Positions 22,154 to 35,118 of a DNA stretch of 35,118 nt are shown here, one piece after another (the stretch's first letter is position 1; the number at the start of each line of letters is the position of its first letter). The translations under genes were made by a program, and so were the position numbers. The notes under the pieces are model-generated. The model was not told the DNA's origin and did no database searches. It saw only the letters and a program-made list of their open reading frames with translations. This DNA comes from Microcella pacifica (GTDB lineage: Bacteria > Actinomycetota > Actinomycetes > Actinomycetales > Microbacteriaceae): the NCBI RefSeq assembly GCF_009371975.2, contig NZ_VIKT02000022.1:1-35118 (forward strand), written 5' to 3'.

Positions 22154-22226
22154 GGCCCCATCGTTTAGCGGCCTAGGACACCGCCCTTTCACGGCGGCAG
22201 CACGGGTTCGAATCCCGTTGGGGTCA
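22154..22226 (+). tRNA. tRNA-Glu (UUC anticodon)
   Basis: A 73-base cloverleaf. The acceptor stem GGCCCCA pairs with TGGGGTC, including one G-T pair. The anticodon stem CCGCC/GGCGG holds loop CTTTCAC with anticodon TTC. The T arm is CGGGTTCGAATCCCG, and the discriminator base is A. The CCA end is not encoded. Confidence 0.97.
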
Positions 22227-22255
22227 CTCAGCTACCGACACAATTGAATACGCAA

Positions 22256-22329
22256 GGCCCTGTAGCGCAGTTGGTTAGCGCGCCGCCCTGTCACGGCGGA
22301 GGTCGCCGGTTCAAGTCCGGTCAGGGTCG
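22256..22329 (+). tRNA. tRNA-Asp (GUC anticodon)
   Basis: A 74-base cloverleaf with acceptor GGCCCTG/CAGGGTC (one G-T pair). The anticodon stem CCGCC/GGCGG holds loop CTGTCAC with anticodon GTC. The T arm contains GGTTCAAGTCC and the discriminator base is G. The CCA end is not encoded. It is 29 bases after tRNA-Glu, so the two are likely co-transcribed. Confidence 0.97.
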
Positions 22330-22333
22330 CGGT

Positions 22334-22383
22334 GAGAGCCTCGCTGAAGTACCGAGCCACTCGGTACGAGGTGGGGCTTTTTC
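22334..22383 (+). terminator. Strong intrinsic terminator after tRNA-Asp
   Basis: A nested stem: perfect inner GTACCGAG/CTCGGTAC with a 3-base loop, an outer CCTCG/CGAGG extension, then GGGGC followed by a run of five or more T. It ends the tRNA-Glu/tRNA-Asp transcript, which implies that tRNA-Phe has its own promoter in the remaining 20 or so bases or depends on read-through. Confidence 0.85.
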
Positions 22384-22404
22384 GCTAGGGTCACGTACCC
22401 GCAC

Positions 22405-22480
22405 GGCTCTGTAGCTCAGTTGGTAGAGCGCACGACTGAAAATCGTGAGGTCACGGGATCGACGCCCGTCGGAGCCACCA
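22405..22480 (+). tRNA. tRNA-Phe (GAA anticodon), CCA encoded
   Basis: Acceptor GGCTCTG/CGGAGCC, anticodon stem ACGAC-type with loop CTGAAAA (anticodon GAA), T arm CGGGATCGACGCCCG, discriminator A at 22477, then an encoded CCA (22478-22480). The two other tRNAs of this cluster lack CCA. The remnant of katG and the accessory island begin directly after it. Confidence 0.97.
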
Positions 22481-22487
22481 CAGCTTC

Positions 22488-22518
22488 ATCGTCCTCCCTA
22501 AGGCTGAGGAAGGACGAT
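22488..22518 (+). terminator. Stem-loop after tRNA-Phe, possible terminator
   Basis: ATCGTCCT (22488-22495) pairs perfectly with AGGACGAT (22511-22518), with two further C-G pairs after a bulge. Position 8 bases past tRNA-Phe suggests termination, though the T-run after it is poor. Confidence 0.45.
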
Positions 22519-22882
22519 TCGCTGGCGCATCTCGAGCTAACCTGCCCTGTCGGCAGCATGCGCGTCATCGGACACGAATTTCGGCGACATGAGCCACGGC
22601 TTCTTCATCAACACCGTGGGAGCGCTGACGAACAACCTTTTCGTGAAGCTGACTTACTTGGGCTACGCGTGGGAGCCGGCCGCCTCCACCTCCTACAACC
22701 TGCGCAACCGCACCACCTGCACGGTCGAGCACAGGGCTACCCGAGCCGACCTCGTGTTCGGATCGAACTCGATTCTGCCTTCATACGCCCGGGTCCACGC
22801 GCAAGACGACAGTCGCGAGAAGTTCGTGCACGACTTCGTCGCCGCTTGGAAGACGGTCTTGAAGGCCGACCGCTTCGACCTG
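22519..22882 (+). pseudogene. Remnant of the 3' end of katG (catalase-peroxidase)
   Basis: The translation from 22589 ends in a clear KatG C-terminus: TRADLVFGSNSILPSYARV, then DSREKFVHDFVAAW and DRFDL. These match the catalase-peroxidase pattern RADLVFGSNS..LR..AEVYA and EKFVxDFVAAWxKVMNLDRFD. Upstream of 22589 the match continues in another frame (LELTCP, then VGSMRVIG, for the family's LTAPEMTVLVGGMRVLGAN), so there is an internal deletion and a frameshift near 22570. The original stop is lost and the frame runs on to 22996. Only about the last 120 residues of a roughly 740-residue enzyme remain, without the heme or peroxidase active site. It is a decayed fragment, and I would not count it as a working gene. 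Confidence 0.8.
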
Positions 22883-22993
22883 GTGGCCAGGTCACCCGCC
22901 GCTGAACCGGTCATGGATGCTCGGGCCGGTGTCTCTGCGGGGGCCTCGGCTCTTTCGCTTGTCGGGACGTTTTCAGCACAAGCCGCCCGTCGT

Positions 22994-22999
22994 TAGGCT
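22994..22999 (+). promoter_or_regulatory. Likely -10 element of the winged-helix gene
   Basis: TAGGCT ends 6 bases before the ATG at 23006, which would put the transcription start at or beside the start codon. The AGGA between them is too close to act as a normal ribosome-binding site. Confidence 0.4.
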
Positions 23000-23005
23000 G
23001 CAGGA

Positions 23006-23317
23006 ATGGCCAACAGGAATGAGTTCAGAGCCTTTGTCGTCGAGGCGCTTCGAGCGCTCGGTGGATCGGCGACAGTGCTAGAAGTGACGAAGCAGGTCTG
23101 GCAGGTGCATGAAGCTGACCTGCGCCATTCGGGCGATCTCTTCTACACCTGGCAGTACGACATTCGTTGGGCGGCCCAGTACCTCCGCAACAATGGATAT
23201 CTGAAGACGGTCGATCGCGACAGGAACCACCCGTGGGAGCTCACGGAATCAGGCTGGCAGGTGGATCTCATGGCCCTGGCCTCATCTGCCAAGAAGAAGC
23301 GGAAGGCCTCTAGCTAA
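23006..23317 (+). CDS. Small winged-helix protein (Mrr N-terminal-like)
   Basis: A 103-residue protein with no enzyme domain. The pattern is that of a stand-alone winged helix: helix FRAFVVEALRALGG, then ATVLEVTKQVWQ, the WQYDIRWAAQYLRNNGYLK helix and a wing ending in WELTESGW. This is the layout of the N-terminal DNA-binding domain of Mrr-type restriction proteins. The tail is basic (KKKRK). Its stop overlaps the stop of the convergent cytosine methyltransferase gene by 4 bases. It may be a regulator or specificity accessory of the adjacent system; this is inference from position. Base composition is lower in GC than the core genes. Confidence 0.75.
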   Translation: MANRNEFRAFVVEALRALGGSATVLEVTKQVWQVHEADLRHSGDLFYTWQYDIRWAAQYLRNNGYLKTVDRDRNHPWELTESGWQVDLMALASSAKKKRKASS

Positions 23318-24405
23318 AGCGCAGCGACGAGTAGCCGCCCGATCGCTGCACCTAGCGGGATCGGTACTGCGTTTCCGATCTGACGGGCGATGTCGGTGCG
23401 GGATCCTACGAAGCGATGTCTCGGGCTGAATCCCTGGATCAGAGCGGCCTCATAGTGGGTGATCGCACGGTTTTCCTCCGGATGGAGGTATCTGCCCTTC
23501 TCCGGCTTGAAGAACTCTGTTCGGATGGTCACCGAAGGCTTGTCCCAGCGCAGTCTGCCCATGACGTCTCCAGAGCCCGTCTTGTGCTTGACCCAGCAAG
23601 GTGCCATGAGCTCGGGATAGGGCTCCAAGTCACGACGATTGCCACCTTCAGGAATGACGGCGAACCGCTTGAGCGAGACGGGCGTATAGTTCCGGCTCCA
23701 GTGCAGGTCGCGGGCAACGAAGGACCCAGGGAATACTCGGCCATTGAATTCGGTCTGCCGCTGTCCCAGAAGCTGATCTTGGTCAGGCTGACGCGGCACG
23801 TTGCGCAGCACGTCTCGAACCGTCACCCACGGGCGCAATCCGTCTCCCGGATTGGCGGCATGGGTCTTGGCGAGAACACCCGGGGAACCGAGATCTCGGC
23901 GATAGCCGATCATCACGGTACGACGGCGAGATTGCGCCGCGCCAAAGTCTGCCGCATTGAAGACTTCGGCGTCGAACGCGTAGTCCTCGAGCTCGCCTCC
24001 AGGTTCGGTCGCGGCCAGAAACTGATCGAATTGTGGCGACTTCCTGAATTCAGCGACGTTTTCGACGACGAAGTACTTCGGATGAGCTCGACCTATCGTC
24101 TCCGCGTACTCGCGCCAAAGGGCGTTCCGCTCATCTTCAACGTCACGCTTGCCGAGACTTGAGAATCCTTGGCACGGCGGCCCTCCTACTATGACGTCGG
24201 CTGAGGGCACATCGCCGCGAAGCCACTCGCGAATGTCACCGACGAACAGCAGACCTGAACCATGGCTAGCCTCGTAGGAAGCGGCCGCAGCGGCGTCCCA
24301 TTCGACAGCTCCGACGGTTCTGAACCGTTCGGATGCAGCTTGAAGGCCGGCCGACAACCCACCCGCCCCGGCGAATAGGTCGAGAACTCGAATATCGCCA
24401 GCCAT
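23314..24405 (-). CDS. DNA (cytosine-5-)-methyltransferase, DrmMII-like
   Basis: A 363-residue C5 methyltransferase. Motif I DLFAGAGGLS near residue 9 binds AdoMet; motif IV GGPPCQGFSSLGKR near 73-86 holds the catalytic Cys; motif VI FVVENV, motif VIII QSRRR and motif X QIGNAVP all are intact. It should methylate host DNA and so mark self. It is divergent from the three-gene helicase operon (154 bases between starts). In class 2 DISARM the modifying enzyme is also a cytosine methylase. A TAAGAT hexamer 6 bases before the ATG suggests a leaderless message. The target site cannot be read from sequence. A lone Dcm-type orphan is the alternative. Confidence 0.93.
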   Translation of the reverse strand: MAGDIRVLDLFAGAGGLSAGLQAASERFRTVGAVEWDAAAAASYEASHGSGLLFVGDIREWLRGDVPSADVIVGGPPCQGFSSLGKRDVEDERNALWREYAETIGRAHPKYFVVENVAEFRKSPQFDQFLAATEPGGELEDYAFDAEVFNAADFGAAQSRRRTVMIGYRRDLGSPGVLAKTHAANPGDGLRPWVTVRDVLRNVPRQPDQDQLLGQRQTEFNGRVFPGSFVARDLHWSRNYTPVSLKRFAVIPEGGNRRDLEPYPELMAPCWVKHKTGSGDVMGRLRWDKPSVTIRTEFFKPEKGRYLHPEENRAITHYEAALIQGFSPRHRFVGSRTDIARQIGNAVPIPLGAAIGRLLVAAL

Positions 24406-24411
24406 GGGCCA

Positions 24412-24417
24412 ATCTTA
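24412..24417 (-). promoter_or_regulatory. Likely -10 element of the methyltransferase gene
   Basis: TAAGAT on the minus strand is followed after 6 bases (TGGCCC) by the ATG at 24405, leaving no room for a leader. No Shine-Dalgarno sequence is present. No clear -35 was seen. Confidence 0.45.
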
Positions 24418-24524
24418 TGGGGAAGGTGCTCTGAGCGGTTCGCGCGACTCACAGGCATGTGCCACCAGTTCTGGGACGCCCTCGTTTGTCGGACGCTCGG
24501 GATATGTTGAAGGAGAGTCGACGA

Positions 24525-24542
24525 ATGAAGAGGCTCAGTTGA
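24525..24542 (+). other. Possible 5-codon leader ORF before the helicase operon
   Basis: AAGGAGAG followed after 7 bases by ATG AAG AGG CTC AGT TGA makes a well-initiated five-codon frame (MKRLS). Its stop runs into GAGGGAGG (24541-24548), the probable ribosome-binding site of the large ATPase-helicase gene at 24560. It may couple or limit translation of the operon, or may be chance. Confidence 0.35.
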
Positions 24543-24559
24543 GGGAGGCCGGCCCGTTC

Positions 24560-27500
24560 ATGTGGGAAGAATCTGATCCCGTGCTCGAAGCACAGGTAGT
24601 CGAACGTCAACGAATCACTATCGAGAACTACCGCAACGACCCGGATCTCTTGGCCGAGCACGTCGGCATGGAGGACAACTTCCAAGCGGGGGGCTACGGC
24701 GAACGGCAGGTCGAGGAGCTACTCCAAAACGCAATCGACCAGTTGGGGTCACCCGGGCGAGTCGAATTACGCCTGGCAGACGGGAGCCTCTACTGCGCTA
24801 ACGAGGGAACCCCGTTTGCCTCGGAAGGCATCAGGGCAATTACGGGCGCGTTCCTCAGTTCAAAAGACGATGAGAAAATTGGCCGTTTCGGTCTGGGCTT
24901 CAAGTCGGTCCTGGGTGTGACGAATCAGCCCCAGATCCTCAGCCAAACGATCTCGTTCGGGTTCAATGAGCCTGAGGCCAAGTCTCTTCTCGCCGAGTTG
25001 CCTTATGAAACCCAGCGAGTACCCACGCTCCGAGTCCCGAGTGTCCTTCACGCCCAATCGATCGCTGCCGATGACCCAAACGTGGCAGAGCTAATGGAGT
25101 GGGCCTCTACAGTCGTGAAGCTGCCGCTCGCCCGTGGAGGTGAGAGGCTTCGCCGACGCCTAGAGGAGTTCGACGTTCGCTACTTGCTCTTCCCGGAGAA
25201 TCTCGCGCAGGTTGACATTGTGCTCGCCGACGCTGAGGGTGAACTCGGTCGGCGTGTACTTCGTCGCCGTCCCGGAACTGACCCGGCATTGGTACAGCTT
25301 CAGGCGCCCGATGGAGAAACCTCCGAGTGGCGGGTGCTTCGAAGGGACCACCACGTTTCCGACGATGTCGCGAGCGACCTCCCGGGTCTATTCCGCCGAG
25401 ATCAGGTGACCGTCTCCTATGCGCTGGAGGTCGGGAAGTCCGGAGTCGGCGAATTCTGGGCCTGGTTTCCTTTGCAGGACCAGACCACTGCAAGCGGCAT
25501 TTTCAATGCTCCGTGGCAAGTCAACGACGACCGCACCTCGATGCTGCCGGGAAGCGCCCTGAACCGCGAGCTGCTTGGTGTCGCGGCGGAGCTCCTAATC
25601 GACGCGGCGCTACTCGAGTCAACGCCAGAAGATCCAGCGCAGCACTTCGATGTATTGCCTGCACGAGGGCGAGAAACTCGATCGGCGGCTGACAGGTTTC
25701 TGTCCGAACGAATTCCGCTGATGGCACGGAGGCACGAACTGATCCCCACGGGTCAAGGGGAGATGCGAGCACCATCTCGAGTTCGCGCACCTTTCCTCTC
25801 TAGCCAGCCAAATCCGTTCGATTTGCCAGCAGAGGTAATGCAGCGTTGGTCAGACGCGACCAAGGATGCGGATGCTCCCCATTGGAGCTGCTACAGGACG
25901 CCAACTCGTCGGGCCCGACTGGCGCAGCTTCTCCTTGGAGACGATGAGCGCGCTGTGTGCGTGACAGTAACTCCGAGCGCCTGGCTCTCGGAAGCGGCAG
26001 AAGCGCGATCGATCGATGCGATAGACGCCGCCCTCTCAGTGTTCCTCCGCCTCAAGCAAGAGAAGGACGAGATCTGGAAGCAGTTCCAGAGCGCCCTGAT
26101 CATTCCTCTCGAAGGGGGAGGTTTCGCAAGGGCTGCTGATGCAGCCACCGTCCTTCTCCCGGTGGCACTAGCCGAGGCTCCTGCCGGGGTGTCAATGGTG
26201 GAAGGCGCATTCGCTGAAGACCCGGGGCTTCGAAGGAAACTGGAAGAGCTCGGAGCGAAAGACGTCTCGGCGGATCAGGTTGCCCTCGCAACTGCGATGA
26301 CCGGGCACGCTAACTGGACTGACGCTGATTGGAGCCAGTTTTGGACCATGTTGGCAAAAGCCACACCATCGGGAGGTAAAGACGCTCTCGAATCGCTGGA
26401 GACGCGAAGAGTCCCCATAAAGGTGCAAACCGACGCGGGAACATGGCGCGAAGCAGTTGACGTGTTCTTGGACCCAGCCATGGCGCCTGGCATCCCAGCG
26501 AGACAGCCTTCCTTCCAGGCCGTCTCGGGTCGACGCGACTTGCTTGAGCTAGCGGGATGCATTGTTGACCCACACCCTGACTACCCAGTGCATCGTGAAC
26601 GCGCTTTCGAGATCTACTCCAAGAAGATGCAGCAGGACGTCAACGCCAAGGTGCAAGAAGAATACGGCCGCGGGAAGCGCGCGACCTTGAAGTTCGGCGA
26701 CCCCCATGGGGCGGGGCCACTTGACGTGTTGATCGAACTCGCTGAGAACCCCGATCCCCACGCTCGGAGAGCCCGGGCCGATTGGTCCACCCGCATTCTG
26801 CTCGCGAACCGAACTAGCACAATTGACGCTGGTCTCCGCATCTACGGTCAAGACCGAGACGCAAAAGTCACGATGACCGCTCCGGACATCTGGGCTGTCG
26901 AAGCCTTCGGGCTAGTGAACACATCGCTTGGGGCTGAGCCACTCAAAACCGCTCTAGCCACTTCACTCTCACAGTTCGGGCAGTATCTGGCGGTCGTGAC
27001 CCCGCAACTCGCCGGAGCCTACTCGCTACCCAGAAGCCTCTCCGACGCGCCGGACGATGCCCTGAGATTGCTCTTCACGCGAGACGACTACACCGCAGAC
27101 GAACCCGAGCGGCTGGGAGAAGTACTTGCTGAGGCGTCCGGGCGCCCGACTTTCACGGGTGTGGACGAAATTCCGGCGTTCGACCCGAAGAGCCAACGAA
27201 TTCGCCTGACTCCGGTCCTGGAAGTCGTCCTGGCAACGACCGAGGAGATGGACGACCTCGGGTCACACAGTCTCCGCTATATTCCCTCCGGACCGTGCGA
27301 CGACGCACTAGTCAGCGCCTGGAGTGTTCAAAGGGCGTCTGATGTCATCGCCAGGGCGATCGACTGGACGCCCGTTGAAGACTCAGTCCCAATTCTCGAC
27401 GTCTACCCCAGCCTGAGAGACGCAGTCGCCAACCCGATAGAGGATCTCTTTGTTCGCCGTTGTAGCAGGATCACAAGACGGACTACCAGTCCTGCTGGAG

Positions 27501-29269
27501 TTCGAGAGCAGCGACTCCCTTCGCACCTGGATGGGAAAACTGTTCTGGTCGACGCAGAACTCGATCCGGTCTCTGAGCTCACCCGATTGAGCGCTGTGCT
27601 GCGACTTGGGCTAACCGAGGCGGACGCAGCAAGAGTGATCGCGAGCGATGAGGCGCTCAGGCAAAGCAAGCTTGTGCAAGACGTACTCGCCGAGTCTTCA
27701 GAGGCCAAGAAGCTCCTGCTTCTGGTTGGACGTGAAGAGCTCGTTGAGAACCTCCCCCATGGCCTACTAGGGGTGATCGAACGACGCCAGGGAAGACAAA
27801 GCGATCTTGCGGTCGCAGAGCTGTTCATAACGACACGAGGCAATGACTCCCTGCGGTGGTTGAAGGAGCCACTTTCAGAGGCAGGCCTCGCCGTGCCTCG
27901 CGCATGGGCCGGCTCAGCGGAAGCTGACCAGTTCGTAACGTCGCTGGGCTTCCCCCGCACTTACGCGGGCACCCGGGAGAAGAAGGCTACGCCTACGGAG
28001 CTTGTCCCCGGAAGAGTCGATCTCAAGCCACTGCACAGATTCCAGGAGGATCTGCGCAACCTAATACGCGAGCTGGTCCTGATCCGGGACAAGGATGGCG
28101 ATCATCGCCGTGGTCTTCTCTACCTACCGACCGGAGCTGGGAAGACCCGCGTCACCACGGAGTCGATTGTGGCGATGCTTCGAGACGAGGAGCTTGCCTC
28201 TCCTGTCCTGTGGATCGCGCAATCTGAAGAGCTCTGCGAGCAAGCGATTCTGTCGTGGGCAGAGGTTTGGCGCGCGATCGGTGACGAACGTCCTCTCGAG
28301 ATCACCAGATATTGGGGCAACTACGAGGCCGACGAGTCCCTTCAAGAATTGCAGGTTGTTGTCGCGACCGACGCGAAGTTGGCATCGATGATCGACCGAG
28401 GCAGTCGAGCGCACGGTTGGTTGCAGAATTCGAAACTTGTCGTGATCGACGAGGCACACACGGCTGGGTCACCGACTTACACGAAGATTCTGAGCTGGTT
28501 GGGAATCACCCGGGACGCCCGAGGCTCCTCGACCGCGCGCCCTCTCCTGGGGCTGACCGCCACCCCTTATAGGGGAACGAATGTGGATGTGAATAAGCAG
28601 TTCGTCGCGAGATTCGGAGAGCGGCGACTAAACGCACTGGATCTCGAGGACCCGATCGGTCAGCTCCGTGACATGCAAGTTCTTTCCAGAGTCGAGCATC
28701 AGTTGCTAGATGGAGTAATCGTTGATGATGCCCCGACCGAGGGCATCACCGGGGGACGAGCCTGGGATGACGTGTCACGCGCAACCCTAGCCAGGCTCGG
28801 AGAGAACCTTGACCGCACGCAGCAGCTCGTCGATCACATCATGCGACAGCACCCGGAATGGCCGATTCTGGTGTTCACACCGTCAGTGGTCTCCGCACAC
28901 GTGACGGCGGCTCTGATCAGAAGCCTAGGCAGACACGCGGACGCTGTGGACGGTGAGATGCGGGGGCAGGAGCGGCGGCGCAAGATCGACGCATTCAAGG
29001 CAGGAGACACGAAAGTGCTCGTGAACTGCGACCTTCTGACACAGGGTTTCGATGCACCGAAGGTTCGAGCTCTCTATATCGCCCGGCCGACGTTCTCGCC
29101 CAATCGCTACGTACAGATGGTTGGTCGCGGACTCCGTGGCCCCCTGAACGGTGGAACCGAAGAATGCCTGGTGGTGAACATGGTCGACACGTTCACCCAG
29201 TTCGACCGCAAGTTGGCGTTCACAGAATTCGACTACCTCTGGACCAAGAAGGGTGTGAAGAACAAGTGA
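24560..29269 (+). CDS. Sacsin/Hsp90-type GHKL ATPase fused to an SF2 helicase, DISARM-associated
   Basis: A 1569-residue protein. Residues about 20-330 form a GHKL ATPase module of sacsin type: N-box ELLQNAID at 53-60, CANEGTPF at 79-86, GRFGLGFKSVL at 108-118, and a downstream FNAPWQVNDDRTSM stretch. Residues about 340-1140 match nothing I recognise. The C-terminal 430 residues are a superfamily-2 helicase: Walker A PTGAGKT at 1190-1196, DEAH at 1297-1300, LTATP at 1332-1336, and motif VI QMVGRGLRG from 1519 with both arginines. I start at the ATG at 24560, 11 bases after GGGAGG, not at the in-frame ATG at 24404, which has no ribosome-binding site. Its stop overlaps the drmA-like GTG (GTGA). 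It replaces the DrmD or DrmE expected in known DISARM classes. Confidence 0.85.
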   Translation: MWEESDPVLEAQVVERQRITIENYRNDPDLLAEHVGMEDNFQAGGYGERQVEELLQNAIDQLGSPGRVELRLADGSLYCANEGTPFASEGIRAITGAFLSSKDDEKIGRFGLGFKSVLGVTNQPQILSQTISFGFNEPEAKSLLAELPYETQRVPTLRVPSVLHAQSIAADDPNVAELMEWASTVVKLPLARGGERLRRRLEEFDVRYLLFPENLAQVDIVLADAEGELGRRVLRRRPGTDPALVQLQAPDGETSEWRVLRRDHHVSDDVASDLPGLFRRDQVTVSYALEVGKSGVGEFWAWFPLQDQTTASGIFNAPWQVNDDRTSMLPGSALNRELLGVAAELLIDAALLESTPEDPAQHFDVLPARGRETRSAADRFLSERIPLMARRHELIPTGQGEMRAPSRVRAPFLSSQPNPFDLPAEVMQRWSDATKDADAPHWSCYRTPTRRARLAQLLLGDDERAVCVTVTPSAWLSEAAEARSIDAIDAALSVFLRLKQEKDEIWKQFQSALIIPLEGGGFARAADAATVLLPVALAEAPAGVSMVEGAFAEDPGLRRKLEELGAKDVSADQVALATAMTGHANWTDADWSQFWTMLAKATPSGGKDALESLETRRVPIKVQTDAGTWREAVDVFLDPAMAPGIPARQPSFQAVSGRRDLLELAGCIVDPHPDYPVHRERAFEIYSKKMQQDVNAKVQEEYGRGKRATLKFGDPHGAGPLDVLIELAENPDPHARRARADWSTRILLANRTSTIDAGLRIYGQDRDAKVTMTAPDIWAVEAFGLVNTSLGAEPLKTALATSLSQFGQYLAVVTPQLAGAYSLPRSLSDAPDDALRLLFTRDDYTADEPERLGEVLAEASGRPTFTGVDEIPAFDPKSQRIRLTPVLEVVLATTEEMDDLGSHSLRYIPSGPCDDALVSAWSVQRASDVIARAIDWTPVEDSVPILDVYPSLRDAVANPIEDLFVRRCSRITRRTTSPAGVREQRLPSHLDGKTVLVDAELDPVSELTRLSAVLRLGLTEADAARVIASDEALRQSKLVQDVLAESSEAKKLLLLVGREELVENLPHGLLGVIERRQGRQSDLAVAELFITTRGNDSLRWLKEPLSEAGLAVPRAWAGSAEADQFVTSLGFPRTYAGTREKKATPTELVPGRVDLKPLHRFQEDLRNLIRELVLIRDKDGDHRRGLLYLPTGAGKTRVTTESIVAMLRDEELASPVLWIAQSEELCEQAILSWAEVWRAIGDERPLEITRYWGNYEADESLQELQVVVATDAKLASMIDRGSRAHGWLQNSKLVVIDEAHTAGSPTYTKILSWLGITRDARGSSTARPLLGLTATPYRGTNVDVNKQFVARFGERRLNALDLEDPIGQLRDMQVLSRVEHQLLDGVIVDDAPTEGITGGRAWDDVSRATLARLGENLDRTQQLVDHIMRQHPEWPILVFTPSVVSAHVTAALIRSLGRHADAVDGEMRGQERRRKIDAFKAGDTKVLVNCDLLTQGFDAPKVRALYIARPTFSPNRYVQMVGRGLRGPLNGGTEECLVVNMVDTFTQFDRKLAFTEFDYLWTKKGVKNK

Positions 29270-32200
29270 GATCCGGCGGCCAGGCAGCTTTCATCGAATA
29301 CTTGCGCAAGAATTTCGTTGGTCCACGGAGCGGGGACGACGAAGAAGTTGAGTCGAACCCGGTTTATGCATACCTAACGGGAATGCTATTCCCAATGGAG
29401 GTGGGGGAAGGCGTTCCGCCGGAGACTCTTGACGAGGACCTGAGTCCTGATGAATCCGTGGTCAAAGGCGAGGCCGATGACGGATTCCCCGACGAAGAGG
29501 ACCTTGACCAAGATGACATCGGGAACCTGACCGCGGCCTCAGGGTGGACACCGTCCTCAATGGGCTTGTCATTCATGCATGACTCCCCAGAGCTCGTCGT
29601 CAGCATCAGAGGCGCTGCCTACGAACGGCAATACGAGCGAGACGACGAGGCAGCAGGCACTGGAGATGGCCGGTGGCGCCGCGTGGCGTTCAGTGATCAA
29701 TCTGTCATCATCGCGGCAGCAACTAACGGACAGGAGGACGTCTGGGGAGGCCGTGCCAGGCTGCAGTGGCGGTCGAGGCCGGGCAAGCACGCGGAGATCG
29801 TGACCGTTTCGCTCTCGAACGCAGTGCAAGTTCCACTTGGTCGCGCAAAGAAGGAAGTGGAGAGCGTGCTCTTCCAGTGCGAATTCGATGTTGAATCGGT
29901 CGGCGGGGTGATCCAGCCTTACCCAGGAAATGTCGTTGTGAATGCGACGCCGGAGGATCGCGAACTCGAGTATCGCTTTCGAAACCACCTGAGTTACGCG
30001 ATCGGACACGGTGTCGCTGCCACCTGGTTATCGAGCCTTCCGGTGACGCGGATTTCGACAGACTCTCTGCCTTCCGAGACAGTGCCTCGAGTCAAGCCAC
30101 GTGAAGCCTCGGGAGAGGCTCTCAGAATGGCATGGCTGGCCGACCGAAGCTTGCTTTCGGACGTTCTCGCAGAAGGGCTTTCCGGTTTCGTATCTGAGTA
30201 TGAGCGATGGGTATCCGACAGGCGGGTAGAGGCAGAATCGGCGGGCAAGCATCGCGAGGCGGCCCTTGGGCTTGTCAGCCGGATGGATCAGGCAACGAAA
30301 CGAATGCGTGAAGGCATACTCCTGCTTGGACGTGATGCTGCGGTTCGCGAGGCGTTCCAATTGGCGAACATGGCCATGAGGCTGCAAAGCACCAGGGGCA
30401 TCGAGGTGCCCTTCGAAGAAGAACCCAACTGGCGCCCGTTCCAGCTGGCGTTTATCCTCATGGCCTTGGCGTCAACCGCCGGCGACGACCACGAGGATCG
30501 CGAACTAGTTGACCTCATATGGTTCCCAACGGGAGGCGGAAAGACAGAGGCATACCTCGGGCTCGCAGCGTTCGAAATGATCCGACGCCGCCTGCAGGAC
30601 GGTTCGGCTGGCGGCGGCACCGCGGTCATTACCCGCTACACGATGCGTCTTCTCACGGCCCAACAGTTCCAACGAACAGCGCGGCTCATCTGCGCTCTTG
30701 AGTTGTTGCGAGACGACGGCACCTTACCTCCAAGCACGCCACCCTTCAGTGTCGGCCTCTTGCTAGGAGGAACTACTACTCCGAATGATTTCAAGGCTGC
30801 AGAACGCTTGTTGGCAGAGGTCCGAGGACAACTCAGCCCGCACAACCCGTTTCAGGTGCGCGCTTGCCCATGGTGCGAGACGCAGCTCATGCCCGAGCGG
30901 AAATCGCAGCGCGATGATACGTACGGATTTCGTGCGACAGCCAAGAGCTTCACGATCAACTGCGTCAACAGGAAGTGTGCATTCCATGCAAGCTTGCCGA
31001 TGCAGGTCGTGGACGAAGCGATATTCCAGACCCCCCCAACCATCGTGGTCGCGACAGTAGACAAATTCGCGCGTCTCGCCTGGATTCCCAGCGGGGGATC
31101 GATTTTCGGGCTCAGTGGCTCGAGCTTCAACCCGCCGTCACTCATCATCCAGGACGAGCTCCACCTGATTTCTGGACCCCTAGGCACGATCGTCGGGATC
31201 TACGAGGCCGCGATCCAGTCACTACTCAAGTGGCGCGGGTCGTCTCCCAAGATCGTGGCTTCAACCGCAACCATCCGTTCAGCAGACGAACAAGTTCGAG
31301 GGCTTATGGCCTCCAGAGTGGAGGTCTTCCCGCCGAGTGGCTTGGACGCCGACGACAACTATTTCGCGGAACTGGACCAGGAAGGACCCGGACGTGTTTA
31401 CGTCGGCATCTTGCCCCAGGCATTCGCGCCGGCTTGGGCAATCGGCCAAGCCGCTGGTCGGCTCCTAGCGGCTCCCACCGCAATTCCGTCCCTGTCGACG
31501 GCTGAACAGGACGCGTACTGGACGCTCGTGGCCTACCACAACAGCCTCCGGGAACTCGGTCGGACCGTAACGATCCTCCGCGATGACGTTCGAACAATGT
31601 TGGAGCGCGAAGTGACATCGAACCCCGGTGGTCGAACTATCGGAGCCGAGGGCATTGAGGAACTTACTAGCAACGTCGATTCCCACGAGCTGGTCAAGAT
31701 TCTCGAGCGGCTCAGTGTTTCGAAAGGCTCCCCAGGAGTCATCGACGCAATCGCAGCCACCAATATCCTCTCGGTCGGAATCGATGTTGACCGCCTCGGG
31801 CTCATGCTGGTCAACGGGCAACCCAAGACAACGGCGGAGTACATCCAGGCCACTAGTCGGGTCGGACGAGCAGGAGTGCCGGGCATCGTATTGACGCTGT
31901 ACCGCTCTGGAAAGGCGCGCGATCGATCCACATTCGAGGGCTTCCGCACCTTTCACGGTTCTTTCTACAGGTTTGTGGAGCCGACCTCGGTGACACCCTG
32001 GGCTTTCCAAGCACGCCGACGGGCGCTACGGGCAGCGCTCGTAATCTTGATGCGTCACGCGGCTGGCTACAGCAAGAACGACGATGCAGCCGCGTTCGAC
32101 GAGACATCCGCGTTTGTTCAGAAGGCGATCGGCATGCTTATGGATCACATTCGTCTCGCAGACGAGCGCGAAGCGCCAACGATCGAACGTGAACTTCGCC

Positions 32201-32388
32201 GAGCCGCAGCTGATTGGAACACCCGCGCGAAAGGCAGTGCTGGGGATCTCAAGTACCAAGGTTCCAAGAAAACGGATGACCAACTTCTCAAGACCTTCGG
32301 CGACAGCGGTCAAGGTTGGCCAACTATGCACTCAATGCGGTCAGTCGAACGCGGAGTGCGGCTTCGCCCGCGAGGAGAAAAAGCGTGA
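29266..32388 (+). CDS. drmA: DrmA-like helicase (DISARM core)
   Basis: A 1040-residue superfamily-2 helicase. The N-terminal part begins with a short helix and NFVGPR, then NPVYAYLTGMLFP, the opening typical of DrmA. Walker A FPTGGGKT lies at 420-427 and a DEXH variant DELH at 630-633, followed by LISGPLG. STAT lies at 666-669 and motif VI QATSRVGRAG from 861. A four-cysteine zinc knuckle (C534, C537, C566, C571) sits between the first two helicase motifs. In DISARM, DrmA works with DrmB as the DNA-translocating core against incoming phage DNA. The GTG start overlaps the preceding stop, and its own stop overlaps the drmB GTG, so the three proteins should be made together. Codon use is less GC-biased than in core genes. 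Confidence 0.88.
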   Translation: MRSGGQAAFIEYLRKNFVGPRSGDDEEVESNPVYAYLTGMLFPMEVGEGVPPETLDEDLSPDESVVKGEADDGFPDEEDLDQDDIGNLTAASGWTPSSMGLSFMHDSPELVVSIRGAAYERQYERDDEAAGTGDGRWRRVAFSDQSVIIAAATNGQEDVWGGRARLQWRSRPGKHAEIVTVSLSNAVQVPLGRAKKEVESVLFQCEFDVESVGGVIQPYPGNVVVNATPEDRELEYRFRNHLSYAIGHGVAATWLSSLPVTRISTDSLPSETVPRVKPREASGEALRMAWLADRSLLSDVLAEGLSGFVSEYERWVSDRRVEAESAGKHREAALGLVSRMDQATKRMREGILLLGRDAAVREAFQLANMAMRLQSTRGIEVPFEEEPNWRPFQLAFILMALASTAGDDHEDRELVDLIWFPTGGGKTEAYLGLAAFEMIRRRLQDGSAGGGTAVITRYTMRLLTAQQFQRTARLICALELLRDDGTLPPSTPPFSVGLLLGGTTTPNDFKAAERLLAEVRGQLSPHNPFQVRACPWCETQLMPERKSQRDDTYGFRATAKSFTINCVNRKCAFHASLPMQVVDEAIFQTPPTIVVATVDKFARLAWIPSGGSIFGLSGSSFNPPSLIIQDELHLISGPLGTIVGIYEAAIQSLLKWRGSSPKIVASTATIRSADEQVRGLMASRVEVFPPSGLDADDNYFAELDQEGPGRVYVGILPQAFAPAWAIGQAAGRLLAAPTAIPSLSTAEQDAYWTLVAYHNSLRELGRTVTILRDDVRTMLEREVTSNPGGRTIGAEGIEELTSNVDSHELVKILERLSVSKGSPGVIDAIAATNILSVGIDVDRLGLMLVNGQPKTTAEYIQATSRVGRAGVPGIVLTLYRSGKARDRSTFEGFRTFHGSFYRFVEPTSVTPWAFQARRRALRAALVILMRHAAGYSKNDDAAAFDETSAFVQKAIGMLMDHIRLADEREAPTIERELRRAAADWNTRAKGSAGDLKYQGSKKTDDQLLKTFGDSGQGWPTMHSMRSVERGVRLRPRGEKA

Positions 32389-34175
32389 GCAAGAGAATCC
32401 TGCAGCTGGGCGTAGCGAAGCTGATTGCGCCGTTCGGACCGGGTGCAGTGGTGGACATCCTCGGCGAGTCCTTCATGACATTGACGGCAGACAAATGGCC
32501 GAAGAGAACTTTGCTTGAGCCCGTAGACTGCCTTCGGCTCTCGTCACGGCTCGGCATACAACGCTTCTACGGCCCCCCAACATCCGACGACATTGAGACC
32601 TCGAATGCTCTGGGCATTCCGGTCATTAGGTATCCCGCGTGGCTCTTCTGTCAGACATGCCGACGGATGATTCGGTGGACCAGCAAACTCGAGAATGGAA
32701 AGGCACCGGAGTGTCCAAGCGATTCCGGTCGCCTTGTCCCGATGCGTTTCGTGGTGGCGTGTCGGGAAAGAAGTCACTCTGCTGACGTGCCGTGGCCCGA
32801 ATGGCTACATCGGGCTCCAGGAGCGAACGCCGAGTGCAAAGAGAACAGTTCCCTGAGATTCCGACCGATCGACGGCGGATCGCCTGGCCTTTCCGGCCTC
32901 GAGGTAGCGTGCGATGTATGCAGCAGCCGAAGGACGCTGGGGGATCTGCGCGGAGACGTGCTCCTTCGTGAGGGGCTCGCGTGTCACGGTACTCAACCAT
33001 GGGAGTCCACATGGAGGACCTGCGAAAGCCCACTCGAAGTCCTGCAGCGTGGAGCAACCAGCTTCCACTATGCAGAGACCGAGGCCGCGATCGACATTCC
33101 CGACGTCTCGGCGTCAACGCTCGACGTTGAAGACCGGATCCGCACCAACACTTTCTACCTTGCCCTCAAGAGCACGCCACCAGAAGACCCCTTCGCCTCA
33201 CAGATGGCACATCGTATTGCCGACGAGCTAGACGTTTCAGTCGACTTGGTCCTCAGCCTCGTCCGCCGTGATCTGGATGGCGATGAAGACGGCGTGGTGG
33301 TCAGAAGCGCGATCTTGGGCGAGGAATTCGCTGCGTTCCGCGCGGCCGAGAATGATGACGCCGATGAAGAGAACTTCAAGACTCGAGCGGAGACTTTCGA
33401 CCAAGAGTCCGTTGACGTAGTTGAGAGGGCCTTGGCTGAACTAATCGAAAGCATCGTCCTGGTCGATCGACTGCGGGAAGTGCGCGCAAGCCTCGGCTTC
33501 AAGCGTTACCGACCCGACTCTGACCTGATTGACGCCGTGACCCACGACGGAACCGAAGCGAAATGGCTGCCCGCTTATGAAGGTTTCGGCGAGGGAGTCT
33601 TCCTCCGGTTCAATGCAGCCGCAATGGACGCGTGGGCCAGCACCCCGGGCGCTCGGGCGCGGTCAAGGCAACTGTCGGAAAAGTTCGATACGTCGAACTT
33701 TTCGAAACGGCTTCATCCATTCTCAATCCAATACGTGGCGCTTCATTCGTTCGCCCATGCACTTCTCCGGGAGTTCGCATTCTCTTCGGGCTATCCGGCC
33801 GCGTCCCTGCGTGAGCGGATCTACTGTGAGGCGTCAGGTGACTATGGCGTGTTCATCTATACAACATCGAGTGATCCGGAGGGCACGCTGGGCGGACTCG
33901 TCCGCGAAGGAGAACTTGATCGCCTAGGGAGCAGCCTCGCTCGTGCGGCGGAACAACTGAGTTGGTGTTCGAACGATCCCGTGTGCAGCGAGTCTCATCC
34001 TCAGAACCTTGACGGACTCAACATCGCCGCCTGCCACTCTTGCCTGCTTACGTCAGAGACTTCGTGCGATGGCTTCAACTTGTTACTCGACCGAGTAATG
34101 CTGGTTGGCTCTCCGAATGGAGATGTGGCCGGTCTGTTGGACGGTCTGTTGCAGACGATTTCGGACTCCATGTAG
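32385..34175 (+). CDS. drmB: DrmB-like DUF1998 protein (DISARM core)
   Basis: A 596-residue partner of DrmA. The opening LIAPFGPGAVVD is the family start. Cysteine pairs C89/C92 with C110, and C176/C179, suggest an N-terminal zinc site. The C-terminal third is a DUF1998 domain with LHSFAHALLREF, SSDPEGTLGGLV and the closing cluster WCSNDPVC...ACHSCLL...SC, ending in LLLDRVML. In DISARM, DrmA and DrmB act as a complex that loads on DNA with free ends. The GTG at 32385 is preceded by GGAGAAA. No drmC (phospholipase-D family) follows; the next gene encodes an unrelated DUF1801 protein. Confidence 0.88.
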   Translation: MSKRILQLGVAKLIAPFGPGAVVDILGESFMTLTADKWPKRTLLEPVDCLRLSSRLGIQRFYGPPTSDDIETSNALGIPVIRYPAWLFCQTCRRMIRWTSKLENGKAPECPSDSGRLVPMRFVVACRERSHSADVPWPEWLHRAPGANAECKENSSLRFRPIDGGSPGLSGLEVACDVCSSRRTLGDLRGDVLLREGLACHGTQPWESTWRTCESPLEVLQRGATSFHYAETEAAIDIPDVSASTLDVEDRIRTNTFYLALKSTPPEDPFASQMAHRIADELDVSVDLVLSLVRRDLDGDEDGVVVRSAILGEEFAAFRAAENDDADEENFKTRAETFDQESVDVVERALAELIESIVLVDRLREVRASLGFKRYRPDSDLIDAVTHDGTEAKWLPAYEGFGEGVFLRFNAAAMDAWASTPGARARSRQLSEKFDTSNFSKRLHPFSIQYVALHSFAHALLREFAFSSGYPAASLRERIYCEASGDYGVFIYTTSSDPEGTLGGLVREGELDRLGSSLARAAEQLSWCSNDPVCSESHPQNLDGLNIAACHSCLLTSETSCDGFNLLLDRVMLVGSPNGDVAGLLDGLLQTISDSM

Positions 34176-34258
34176 TACCGCGCCCCTCTCACACGCCAAA
34201 TGTAATGTCTGTGGCGACTCGTTTTCCGTCAGTTACGGAGGGGGCTACCCTGGGCCGC

Positions 34259-34720
34259 ATGAGCAGCGAGAGCCGAGCATCCACCAGCACCGACGGCTTC
34301 ACCGCCGAAGAGCGCGCCGCCATGAAGGAGCGGGCGGCCGAGCTGCGCGCGCAAAAGGGCCGCACGAAGGGCGCCGCGAAGGCGGCCGCCGAGCTGCAGG
34401 ACGTGCTCGACGCGATCGCGAAGCTGCCGGACGACGCCGACCGCGCCCTCGCCGAGCGACTGCACGTCGTCATCACCGAGGCAGGCCCGCAGCTCGCTCC
34501 GCGCACCTGGTACGGCATGCCCGCCTACGCGCTCGACGGCAAGGTGCTGTGCTTCGTGCAGCCGGCCAGCAAGTTCGACACCCGCTACACGACCCTCGGG
34601 TTCAACGACACGGCGCAGCTCGACGACGGCGCCATGTGGCCGGCGTCGTTCGCGGTCACCTCGCTCGGCCCGGCCGAGCAGAAGACGATCACCGAGCTCG
34701 TGCAGCGCGCCATCGGCTGA
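34259..34720 (+). CDS. DUF1801 (YdhG-like) family protein
   Basis: A 153-residue protein. The N-terminal third is helical and rich in Ala, Lys, Arg and Glu (ERAAMKERAAELRAQKGRT). The C-terminal domain carries the DUF1801 marks: TWYGMPAYALDGKVLCFV and YTTLGFNDTAQLDDGAMWPASF. Relatives are annotated as iron chaperone-like or simply uncharacterised. The high-GC codon use is host-like, so the island has ended here. The ATG at 34259 has GGAGGGGG 14 bases upstream and TACCCT 7 bases upstream; the latter suggests a leaderless transcript. Confidence 0.85.
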   Translation: MSSESRASTSTDGFTAEERAAMKERAAELRAQKGRTKGAAKAAAELQDVLDAIAKLPDDADRALAERLHVVITEAGPQLAPRTWYGMPAYALDGKVLCFVQPASKFDTRYTTLGFNDTAQLDDGAMWPASFAVTSLGPAEQKTITELVQRAIG

Positions 34721-34776: not shown

Positions 34777-34980
34777 ATGACTTCTCGAGCACGTGTATCC
34801 GCGTATCGCGATCGCCTGCGCTCCGAAGGTCTTCGACCCGTGCAGGTCTGGGTGCCCGACGTGCGATCTGCCGACTTCGCCACGGAAGCCCGCCGTCAAT
34901 CGGCGCTCGTAGCATCTGCCGCATCACACAGCGACGACATGCAGTTCGTCGAGGCGATCAGTACCACCTGGGACGAGTGA
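34777..34980 (+). CDS. MazE-type antitoxin (DUF3018 family)
   Basis: A 67-residue protein with the compact layout of DUF3018 MazE-like antitoxins: basic helix RVSAYRDRLRSEGL, the conserved RPVQVWVPDVRS, then FATEARRQSALVA and an acidic C-terminal tail for toxin binding. The stop overlaps the GTG of the following toxin-like frame (GTGA), the usual antitoxin-toxin order. Because the toxin frame is broken, the antitoxin is probably now an orphan. Confidence 0.85.
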   Translation: MTSRARVSAYRDRLRSEGLRPVQVWVPDVRSADFATEARRQSALVASAASHSDDMQFVEAISTTWDE

Positions 34981-35036
34981 AGCGCGGCGAGATCCGGCTC
35001 GTGGCCGGGGGCGTCTACGCCAGCAAGCCGCGACCC
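34977..35036 (+). pseudogene. MazF-type toxin gene truncated after about 20 codons
   Basis: GTG at 34977 opens MKRGEIRLVAGGVYASKPRP, the start of a MazF/PemK endoribonuclease (family pattern MKRGD.. to KPRPALV). After KPRP the similarity stops abruptly and the frame continues into sequence that looks like an insertion-sequence end. The remaining 80 or so residues, including the catalytic part of the fold, are missing from this window, so the toxin should be inactive. A copy of the 3' part may lie beyond the element. Confidence 0.7.
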
Positions 35037-35118
35037 GGTCAAGTCCCTGGAAGTGGTGTAACGGCTGATCCTTCGCTTTATGCGCTGAGTGCGATGAAGG
35101 TGTCGGCGACCACCTCGC
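35037..35118 (-). mobile_element. End of an insertion sequence, probably IS256 family, cut by the window edge
   Basis: From 35037 the sequence begins GGTCAAGTCCCTGGAAGTGG and then TGTAAC. Read on the other strand this is a TTACACCACTTCC...GACTTGACC terminus like those I associate with IS256-type elements of actinobacteria. It starts exactly where MazF similarity ends. The other end and the target duplication are outside the window, so family and borders are inferred. Confidence 0.55.
35078..35118 (-). CDS. C-terminal codons of a probable transposase (partial)
   Basis: A minus-strand frame enters from the right edge and ends at a TAA (35078-35080) with the residues EVVADTFIALSA. The stop lies about 40 bases inside the presumed element end, the distance expected for a transposase gene in an IS256-type element. 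Too little is visible to name the protein from sequence alone. Confidence 0.35.
   Translation of the reverse strand, partial: EVVADTFIALSA

Follow-up and report, generated by a model that had tools for sequence, protein, structure and literature searches.

A DISARM-like DrmAB locus with a GHKL-SF2 fusion protein in Microcella pacifica

The window analyzed here is the whole of contig NZ_VIKT02000022.1 (C15 of its genome) of Microcella pacifica, 35,118 nucleotides long. At positions 23006–34175, it carries a locus that encodes separate DrmA and DrmB proteins, the core of the defence system DISARM (defence island system associated with restriction–modification), next to a large fusion of a GHKL ATPase and a superfamily 2 (SF2) helicase. 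Five genes follow one another in the order winged-helix-like protein, C5 methyltransferase, GHKL-SF2 fusion, DrmA, and DrmB, with coordinates and start codons verified:

23006–23317, plus strand: winged-helix-like (Mrr_N-like) protein, 103 residues (PF14338, below cut-off)
23314–24405, minus strand: C5 cytosine DNA methyltransferase, 363 residues (PF00145, 1.6e-55)
24406–24559, no strand: intergenic stretch separating the divergent starts of the methylase and the fusion, which presumably contains the promoters of both
24560–29269, plus strand: GHKL-SF2 fusion, 1569 residues (NF047352, SACS, ResIII, Helicase_C)
29266–32388, plus strand: DrmA, GTG start (NF038325; 7s9v_A)
32385–34175, plus strand: DrmB (DUF1998/MZB), GTG start (NF038324; 7s9v_B; PF09369)

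The winged-helix-like and methylase genes are convergent and overlap at their stop codons, and the methylase diverges from the effector operon, with the promoters of the methylase and the fusion presumably in the intervening stretch. Both the fusion–DrmA and the DrmA–DrmB junctions consist of GTGA overlaps. An earlier reading made from the letters alone (hereafter the sequence-only reading) had noticed a C5 methyltransferase, a DrmA-like helicase, and a DrmB-like DUF1998 protein lying together, with GTGA overlaps between the operon genes, and coordinates, domains, and overlaps agree with it. The G+C content is 0.58–0.62 across the operon, compared with 0.66–0.76 leftward up to 22 kb.

As in the DISARM core, DrmA (a YprA-like SF2 helicase) and DrmB (a DUF1998 protein) are products of separate, adjoining genes. 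They match the solved Serratia DISARM structure at 4.1e-143 (DrmA against 7s9v_A) and 3e-59 (DrmB against 7s9v_B). DrmB scores 401.6 bits on NF038324, above the NCBIfam cut-off of 240, and contains an MZB (DUF1998-type) domain (PF09369, 2.1e-08). DrmA is shorter than its Serratia counterpart, whose N-terminal part it lacks: the two align from Serratia residue 147 onward, and an acidic stretch with 18 Asp/Glu in residues 41–105 is aligned with the Serratia trigger-loop region. Serratia DrmAB binds single-stranded DNA with a 5' overhang, displacing the trigger loop, and its ATPase is limited by methylated DNA, according to the text of PMC9142583 available to us.

The fusion starts at an ATG behind a GGGAGG site, in a reading frame that is open back to 24404. 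Its N-terminus is a sacsin-type GHKL domain (~residues 40–200; NF047352, 71.5 bits, cut-off 50), also matched by SACS, and is followed by a middle region without an assigned family (~400–1140) and a C-terminal RadD-like SF2 helicase (~1150–1560) matched by ResIII and Helicase_C. A profile of 25 fusion homologues retrieved RadD (4.1e-39) and sacsin (7.9e-10) from the PDB among the best 60 of 220 matches, RadD being the best solved-structure match of the helicase part. The PADLOC TmtA profile, which we take to represent the Tiamat system, aligns with residues 61–556 of the fusion open reading frame (ORF) at 6.6e-46 through profile positions 9–489 of 1538. All ATPase, helicase, and methylase motifs looked for in the locus proteins are intact, among them PCQ, ENV, and QIGNAVP of the methylase, which we take to be functional motifs. 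As for a nuclease in the fusion, the profile of the 25 homologues against the PDB (the same best 60 matches) and Pfam scans of the 25 returned only sacsin/GHKL and P-loop helicase-type families. A hidden nuclease was considered and rejected, given the lack of nuclease signal in the PDB, Pfam, and invariant-residue evidence.

The methylase reaches 285 bits on its best PADLOC profile, DruM2, and 157 bits on the best DrmMII profile (best 25 of 62 matches listed); general type II profiles likewise score above DrmMII. The protein encoded next to it is weakly suggested to be winged-helix-like by its sole family match, to PF14338 Mrr_N (3.3e-05, 24.4 bits), which lies under the cut-off of 29.5. In a tblastn search at 0.01 over all loci collected at that stage, homologues of this protein appeared in L178 (G704; 83% protein identity) and weakly, over 37 residues, in L175; the only other match was the window's own copy (L004). 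L178 occupies the same hotspot in a related species and pairs the homologue with a methylase of 75% DNA identity, without DrmAB. The sequence-only reading had counted the winged-helix protein as part of the DrmAB set; we rejected it as a conserved DrmAB partner and retain it as a partner of the methylase, the two probably forming a modification or regulation pair. Because L178 (155–5141) couples the same pair to a DndB-like protein and a 783-residue protein, the pair seems to be a module compatible with different effectors. The 783-residue protein shows GHKL-like motifs on visual inspection and is matched by no family in Pfam, PADLOC, or NCBIfam, and the L178 set may be an unnamed defence system.

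In 15 of 31 other loci, the fetched stretch includes a C5 methylase with 45% or more identity to that of the window, and in L026 and L187 it diverges from the fusion as in the window. At L027 (6207–8811; Cellulomonas cellasea), the gene of a methylase relative (48%) lies next to one for a NaeI-type restriction enzyme (PF09126, 1.4e-29), and this locus also has a Vsr-like gene. Another contig of the host genome contains a partial MmeI/DrmMI-like methylase match of 34% (L186; G000:C7:49625-50854).

The sequence-only reading had also stated that DrmC, DrmD, and DrmE are lacking at the locus. The PADLOC profile matches listed for six locus proteins (the best 25 of 62 for the methylase and the best 25 of 29 for the fusion) contain no profile for DrmC, DrmD, DrmE, or DrmMI, no PglX-like or BrxHII protein, and no DruE, DruF, or DruG. 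Searches of the whole window by tblastn with one DrmC, one DrmD, and one DrmMI protein gave nothing at 1e-3, DrmD being searched in the window only, and the DrmE family NF038316 has no match across the host genome. One DrmC protein had no match in the host genome either, in a search that had no positive control and so shows little. The three absences therefore stand within this scope. As a distinguishing trait, the lack of DrmC fares less well: none was found, but it is a weak class character because DrmC is often missing from DISARM, where this nuclease appears non-essential (PMC9142583, in the text available). PADLOC requires DrmA, DrmB, DrmC, DrmD, and DrmMI for class 1, as given in the accessible part of PMC9252829.

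At E ≤1e-30, and with the host itself counted, the fusion has relatives in 19 of the 394 genomes searched at class level, 13 of 347 at order level, and 7 of 396 at phylum level. These three sets overlap, and the matches in G057, G258, G822, and G956 are to the helicase only. A search of genome contigs added two named relatives, one in Cellulomonas cellasea (61% over the best segment) and one in a Demequina metagenome-assembled genome (53%). We refer to the window, L026 (Demequina), and L027 (Cellulomonas cellasea) as the trio, whose fusion proteins are 53–62% identical to that of the window. Counting the window, we collected 34 full-length copies (33 plus L187, with the second copy of L158 and L159 being one copy), and drmA–drmB follow the fusion in 30 of them, so the linkage, whose absence from other genomes the sequence-only reading had named as a refutation, recurs. 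The two genes follow directly in three cases (the trio), after a NERD-SF1 (superfamily 1 helicase) gene in six (L028, L152–L156), and after a UvrD-like gene in 21. An SF1 helicase gene thus intervenes in 27 of the 30, the window, Cellulomonas, and Demequina being the only ones without it. Its domains were scanned in three members (UvrD in L030 and L039; NERD with SF1 motifs in L028), the gene was located by tblastn in L035 and L037, and the rest were assigned by similarity; the 30 include L155, with a split DrmA, and L032, with a split DrmB. UvrD and NERD-SF1 references gave nothing at 1e-3 by tblastn against L026, L027, and the window, and no recognised nuclease was found in the trio. Because NERD-SF1 precedes drmA also in L077, L117, and L120, outside the fusion-bearing clade, loss of the SF1 gene in the trio is the simpler reading, for trees whose root was not inferred.

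DrmB is more widespread, with a family match at 1e-20 in 59 of 394 class genomes. The DrmB loci, labelled by similarity, fall into class 1 DISARM, fusion-UvrD, fusion-NERD, and several fusion-less DrmAB arrangements. The DrmAB core is common to loci whose partner genes vary, the fusion being one of the partners that recur.

Several of the collected loci have features of their own. A cassette of a 700-residue helix-turn-helix protein and a DUF6339 protein lies upstream of the drmAB operon in L030, L035, L036, L038, L041, L042, L043, L119, and L120, often with a second C5 methylase; in L030, the only cassette scanned, PADLOC calls the first two proteins PDC-M33A and PDC-M33C. Fusion-less DrmA–DrmB loci (L078, L124–L129, L131–L135) encode relatives of the 1273-residue sigma-70-containing protein of L078 and represent a further unassigned DrmAB arrangement. 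L045 (G057) and L046 (G258) contain helicase-only relatives of the C-terminal part of the fusion, the one in L045 adjoining drmB on the opposite strand. At L158/L159 (G488) and L160/L161 (G476), a diverged second fusion lies behind a complete fusion-UvrD-DrmAB operon, without its own DrmAB in the fetched stretch.

We placed the locus with a careful fusion tree (33 rows) and with quick DrmA (68 rows) and DrmB trees that carry support values from the Shimodaira–Hasegawa-like approximate likelihood ratio test (SH-aLRT) only. The class 1 clade comprises 32 rows, two of them plasmid references; 19 of these were dropped before the 68-row DrmA tree, as were L136 and L045. L155, whose DrmA is split, and L187, which was added later, are not represented by a DrmA row. 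L086, L084, L123, and L028 are among the long branches. In the fusion tree, the window groups with L027 and L026 (100/100), sister to the six NERD-type loci (100/100). In the DrmA tree, the trio and five NERD-type rows form a clade (SH-aLRT 99) nested in a 25-row group (100). Outside this group lie class 1 (13 rows, 100), the fusion-UvrD group (22 rows, 100), L084, and L086; two members of the fusion-UvrD group, L081 and L118, have no fusion in the stretch fetched. The DrmB tree recovers the same 21-row group as an earlier DrmA tree (99), with a warning that L028 and the trio, and L086 and L045, are possibly joined falsely.

Approximately unbiased (AU) tests on 39 of the 68 DrmA rows rejected a clade of the trio with six class 1 rows (p 5.7e-06), with L084 and L086 (p 5.6e-06), and with the NERD-type rows and L084 (p 5.4e-07). 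L084 and L086 serve as class 2-like references in trees that hold no authentic class 2 locus: L084 has a DrmE match of 46.2 bits, under the cut-off of 80, and L086, without a DrmE match, owes the label to its DrmMII-type methylase (459.5 bits). A single clade of all fusion-linked DrmA, a group defined by gene content and tested after the tree had been seen, was rejected as well (p 2.2e-04), and with it the idea that fusion-linked DrmAB was inherited everywhere as a single unit. In the DrmA tree, fusion-linked DrmA falls into two lineages; the fusion apparently either joined each of two DrmAB lineages or disappeared from many. Neither DrmA nor DrmB of the window groups with class 1 DISARM. Their distance from class 2 is less certain, and a deeper kinship with it is possible because both class 2-like references lie on the window's side in the DrmA tree. 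The sequence-only reading had proposed a distinct branch of DrmAB; this stands with respect to class 1 and to the fusion as a regular partner and is less certain with respect to class 2, and its interpretation as a whole is partly supported.

The locus is real, well conserved, outside class 1, and not clearly inside class 2. With somewhat better than even confidence, we read the locus as a DISARM-like anti-phage system whose class is separate from class 1 and, within the reach of the tests, also from class 2, and in which the fusion replaces DrmD/DrmE; anti-phage activity of the locus is probable. By analogy with the Serratia DrmAB ATPase, which methylated DNA limits, the methylase would mark host DNA. 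DrmA–DrmB would then load, like Serratia DrmAB, on DNA that lacks the mark and exposes single strands or 5' ends. The GHKL domain would be expected to dimerise on ATP, as in MutL and MORC. In the place of DrmD/DrmE, the sacsin/MutL-like ATPase of the fusion may act as a nucleotide-gated clamp, its RadD-like SF2 motor would move on replication or repair intermediates, and the complex could hold, strip, or block invading DNA. In most of the relatives examined, the SF1 helicase, sometimes fused to a NERD nuclease, would complete the machine; in the three-genome branch of the window, host nucleases or plain blocking would have to finish the job because the SF1 gene is missing. A bolder and tentative version, which we consider rather doubtful as a whole, would make the locus a third class of DISARM-like immunity: a fusion of a sacsin/MutL-type ATP-gated clamp and a RadD-like SF2 motor would replace DrmD/DrmE, would do without a dedicated nuclease in the window's branch, and would stop phage DNA there by clamping and remodelling, with the winged-helix protein and C5 methylase as a self-marking plug-in module that, at this same chromosomal site in another species, is coupled to a quite different effector (a DndB-like protein and a protein with GHKL-like motifs).

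Several observations weigh against a distinct fusion-based class. The score of DrmA on NF038325, 850.4 bits, is under the equivalog cut-off of 950, and in the DrmA tree, L086, the L084 group, and the 25-row group stand together opposite class 1 and the fusion-UvrD group (97). The DrmB tree puts L086 and L045 beside the window's 21-row group (83, with a long-branch warning). Four fusion copies are exceptions to the linkage: that of L040 has its DrmAB 27 kb distant, in L118; that of L163 is accompanied by Vsr and a methylase, with no DrmAB in the 20 kb fetched; and those of G488 and G476 are second tandem copies right behind the drmB of the first copy, with no DrmAB of their own. DrmAB also occurs without the fusion in many loci, and because each is found without the other, neither strictly needs its partner. 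Invariant residues are sparse in the middle third of the fusion and make up no obvious nuclease catalytic set, which leaves room for a divergent nuclease.

L163 also speaks for an explanation we consider unlikely, namely that two independent systems travel side by side, one a paraMORC-type restriction–modification unit (GHKL-SF2, C5 methylase, and often Vsr) and the other a DrmAB unit. A GHKL ATPase with an SF2 helicase, a cytosine methylase, and Vsr is a described restriction–modification theme in the available text of PMC2292703, and DrmAB is found with other partners. Against it, GTGA overlaps connect the three operon genes of the window, 30 of the 34 copies have them in this order, and the split between NERD-type and UvrD-type loci agrees between the fusion and DrmA trees. 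We give still less credence to the idea that the locus is degenerate or incomplete, a DISARM-like system no longer functional after losing its SF1 helicase/nuclease. In its favour, the sister clade and the more distant DrmA relatives L077, L117, and L120 have NERD-SF1 and the trio lacks it, a search without a positive control found no homologue elsewhere in the host genome, and some relatives look damaged, with a split DrmA in L155 and a split DrmB in L032. Yet the three window frames are intact, with conserved motifs and GTGA coupling, and the reduced form is shared by three genomes with 53–62% identical fusions, which points to long maintenance.

Equally improbable, in our estimate, is a relative of class 2 DISARM in which the fusion has taken over from DrmE. 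Class 2 and the window both use a cytosine methylase, the fusion lies upstream of drmA where class 2-like L086 has an 801-residue protein without an assigned family, and, as described above, both references lie on the window's side in the DrmA tree and L086 near its DrmB group. Against this kinship, the AU tests reject the trio with L084 and L086 and the trio with NERD-type rows and L084, the methylase is matched better by DruM2 and general type II profiles than by DrmMII, and L086 and L084 are long branches.

Measured against known systems, the distinct class that we favour shares with class 1 DISARM the homology of its DrmA and DrmB to the Serratia DrmAB structure, but we found no DrmD, DrmMI, or DrmC, DrmA is short and outside the class 1 clade, and the methylase is a C5 rather than an adenine enzyme. 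It shares with class 2 the combination of a cytosine methylase, DrmA, and DrmB, and class 2-like references lie on its DrmA side (97); unlike class 2, no DrmE was found, the methylase is nearer DruM2 than DrmMII, and the narrow grouping with L084/L086 is rejected. Druantia type II consists of DruE, with helicase and DUF1998 in one chain, DruF, and DruG, whereas the window has separate DrmA and DrmB genes, a contrast that the sequence-only reading also drew. The fusion resembles Tiamat in its GHKL-type N-terminus (TmtA profile, 6.6e-46), but the best stretch covers profile positions 9–489 of 1538 only, and the helicase part is matched by other profiles.

A related theme is the MORC/paraMORC restriction–modification group, with GHKL ATPase, SF2 helicase, cytosine methylase, and often Vsr, whose GHKL-SF2-methylase-Vsr operons were described in 2008 (Iyer et al., PMC2292703). 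The window has the GHKL ATPase (NF047352/SACS, N-terminal), the SF2 helicase (ResIII/Helicase_C, C-terminal), and the DNA methylase (the divergent C5 enzyme) of that group; it differs in that GHKL and SF2 form one sacsin-type chain and DrmA–DrmB are added, a set not described in the available text of PMC2292703. In the portion of PMC12458937 (Bell et al. 2025 preprint) at hand, ARMADA, BRIGADE, and TALON are the named YprA-family classes; for the most part their YprA helicase and DUF1998 share one chain, and none has the window's set. The legend of its Figure 1 mentions many uncharacterised DISARM-like classes, and neither GHKL nor sacsin occurs in the main text as available; the window probably belongs to one of these classes. 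The accessible part of PMC10270631 reports Pseudomonas operons that are DISARM-like and include a ShdA homologue. At the level of titles and abstracts, we found no description of this gene set in the literature searched, and the class may be listed in supplementary tables.

A recurrent class that joins DrmAB to a GHKL ATPase instead of DrmD or DrmE offers a natural comparison for how DrmAB sensing leads to phage arrest, the nuclease being seemingly dispensable and the partners varied. If protection survives without a nuclease gene, blocking rather than cutting would suffice. The GHKL side bears on the DNA roles of bacterial sacsin and MORC relatives. Definitions that demand DrmC together with DrmD or DrmE would miss such loci or class them as incomplete.

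The locus sits in a tRNA-Phe hotspot that holds other defence genes in related species, between two edges:

22154–22480, plus strand: tRNA-Glu, tRNA-Asp, and tRNA-Phe, left edge of the variable hotspot (ARAGORN)
34259–34720, plus strand: conserved gene, right edge of the hotspot, outside the system (69–95% DNA identity in same-genus genomes)

We fetched six same-genus genomes (L173–L178) around the right-edge gene. The same three tRNAs form the left edge in L173, L175, L176, and L177; the stretches of L174 and L178 end short of the tRNAs and match the window from 22532 and 22855. The cargo differs between species of the genus (window 22480–34259 against L173–L178). PADLOC scans of selected proteins gave defence matches in four genomes: a type IV restriction enzyme in L173, DruE and DruF in L174, MzaC and MzaE in L176, and DndB in L178. 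Two scanned proteins of L177 had no PADLOC defence match, and one gene of L175, scanned with Pfam alone, is AAA_14/DUF4143.

A phage origin of the locus was rejected for want of fusion relatives in viral contigs, in a search sensitive to close relatives only, and of DrmA relatives in phages. No convincing direct repeats bound the island among the best 20 of 34 repeat families. Between the tRNAs and the island, at 22589–22996, lies a remnant of a catalase-peroxidase C-terminus (TIGR00198, 7.6e-30), and DNA matching this remnant is again present at the left edge in L174, L176, and L177. The contig ends (window ~35035–35118) inside a repeat of ~83 bases, of which the host genome holds ten more copies (96–100%), some at contig ends. 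This terminal repeat resembles an insertion sequence end and appears to break an ORF downstream of a MazE-like ORF at 34777–34980 (labels assigned by eye).

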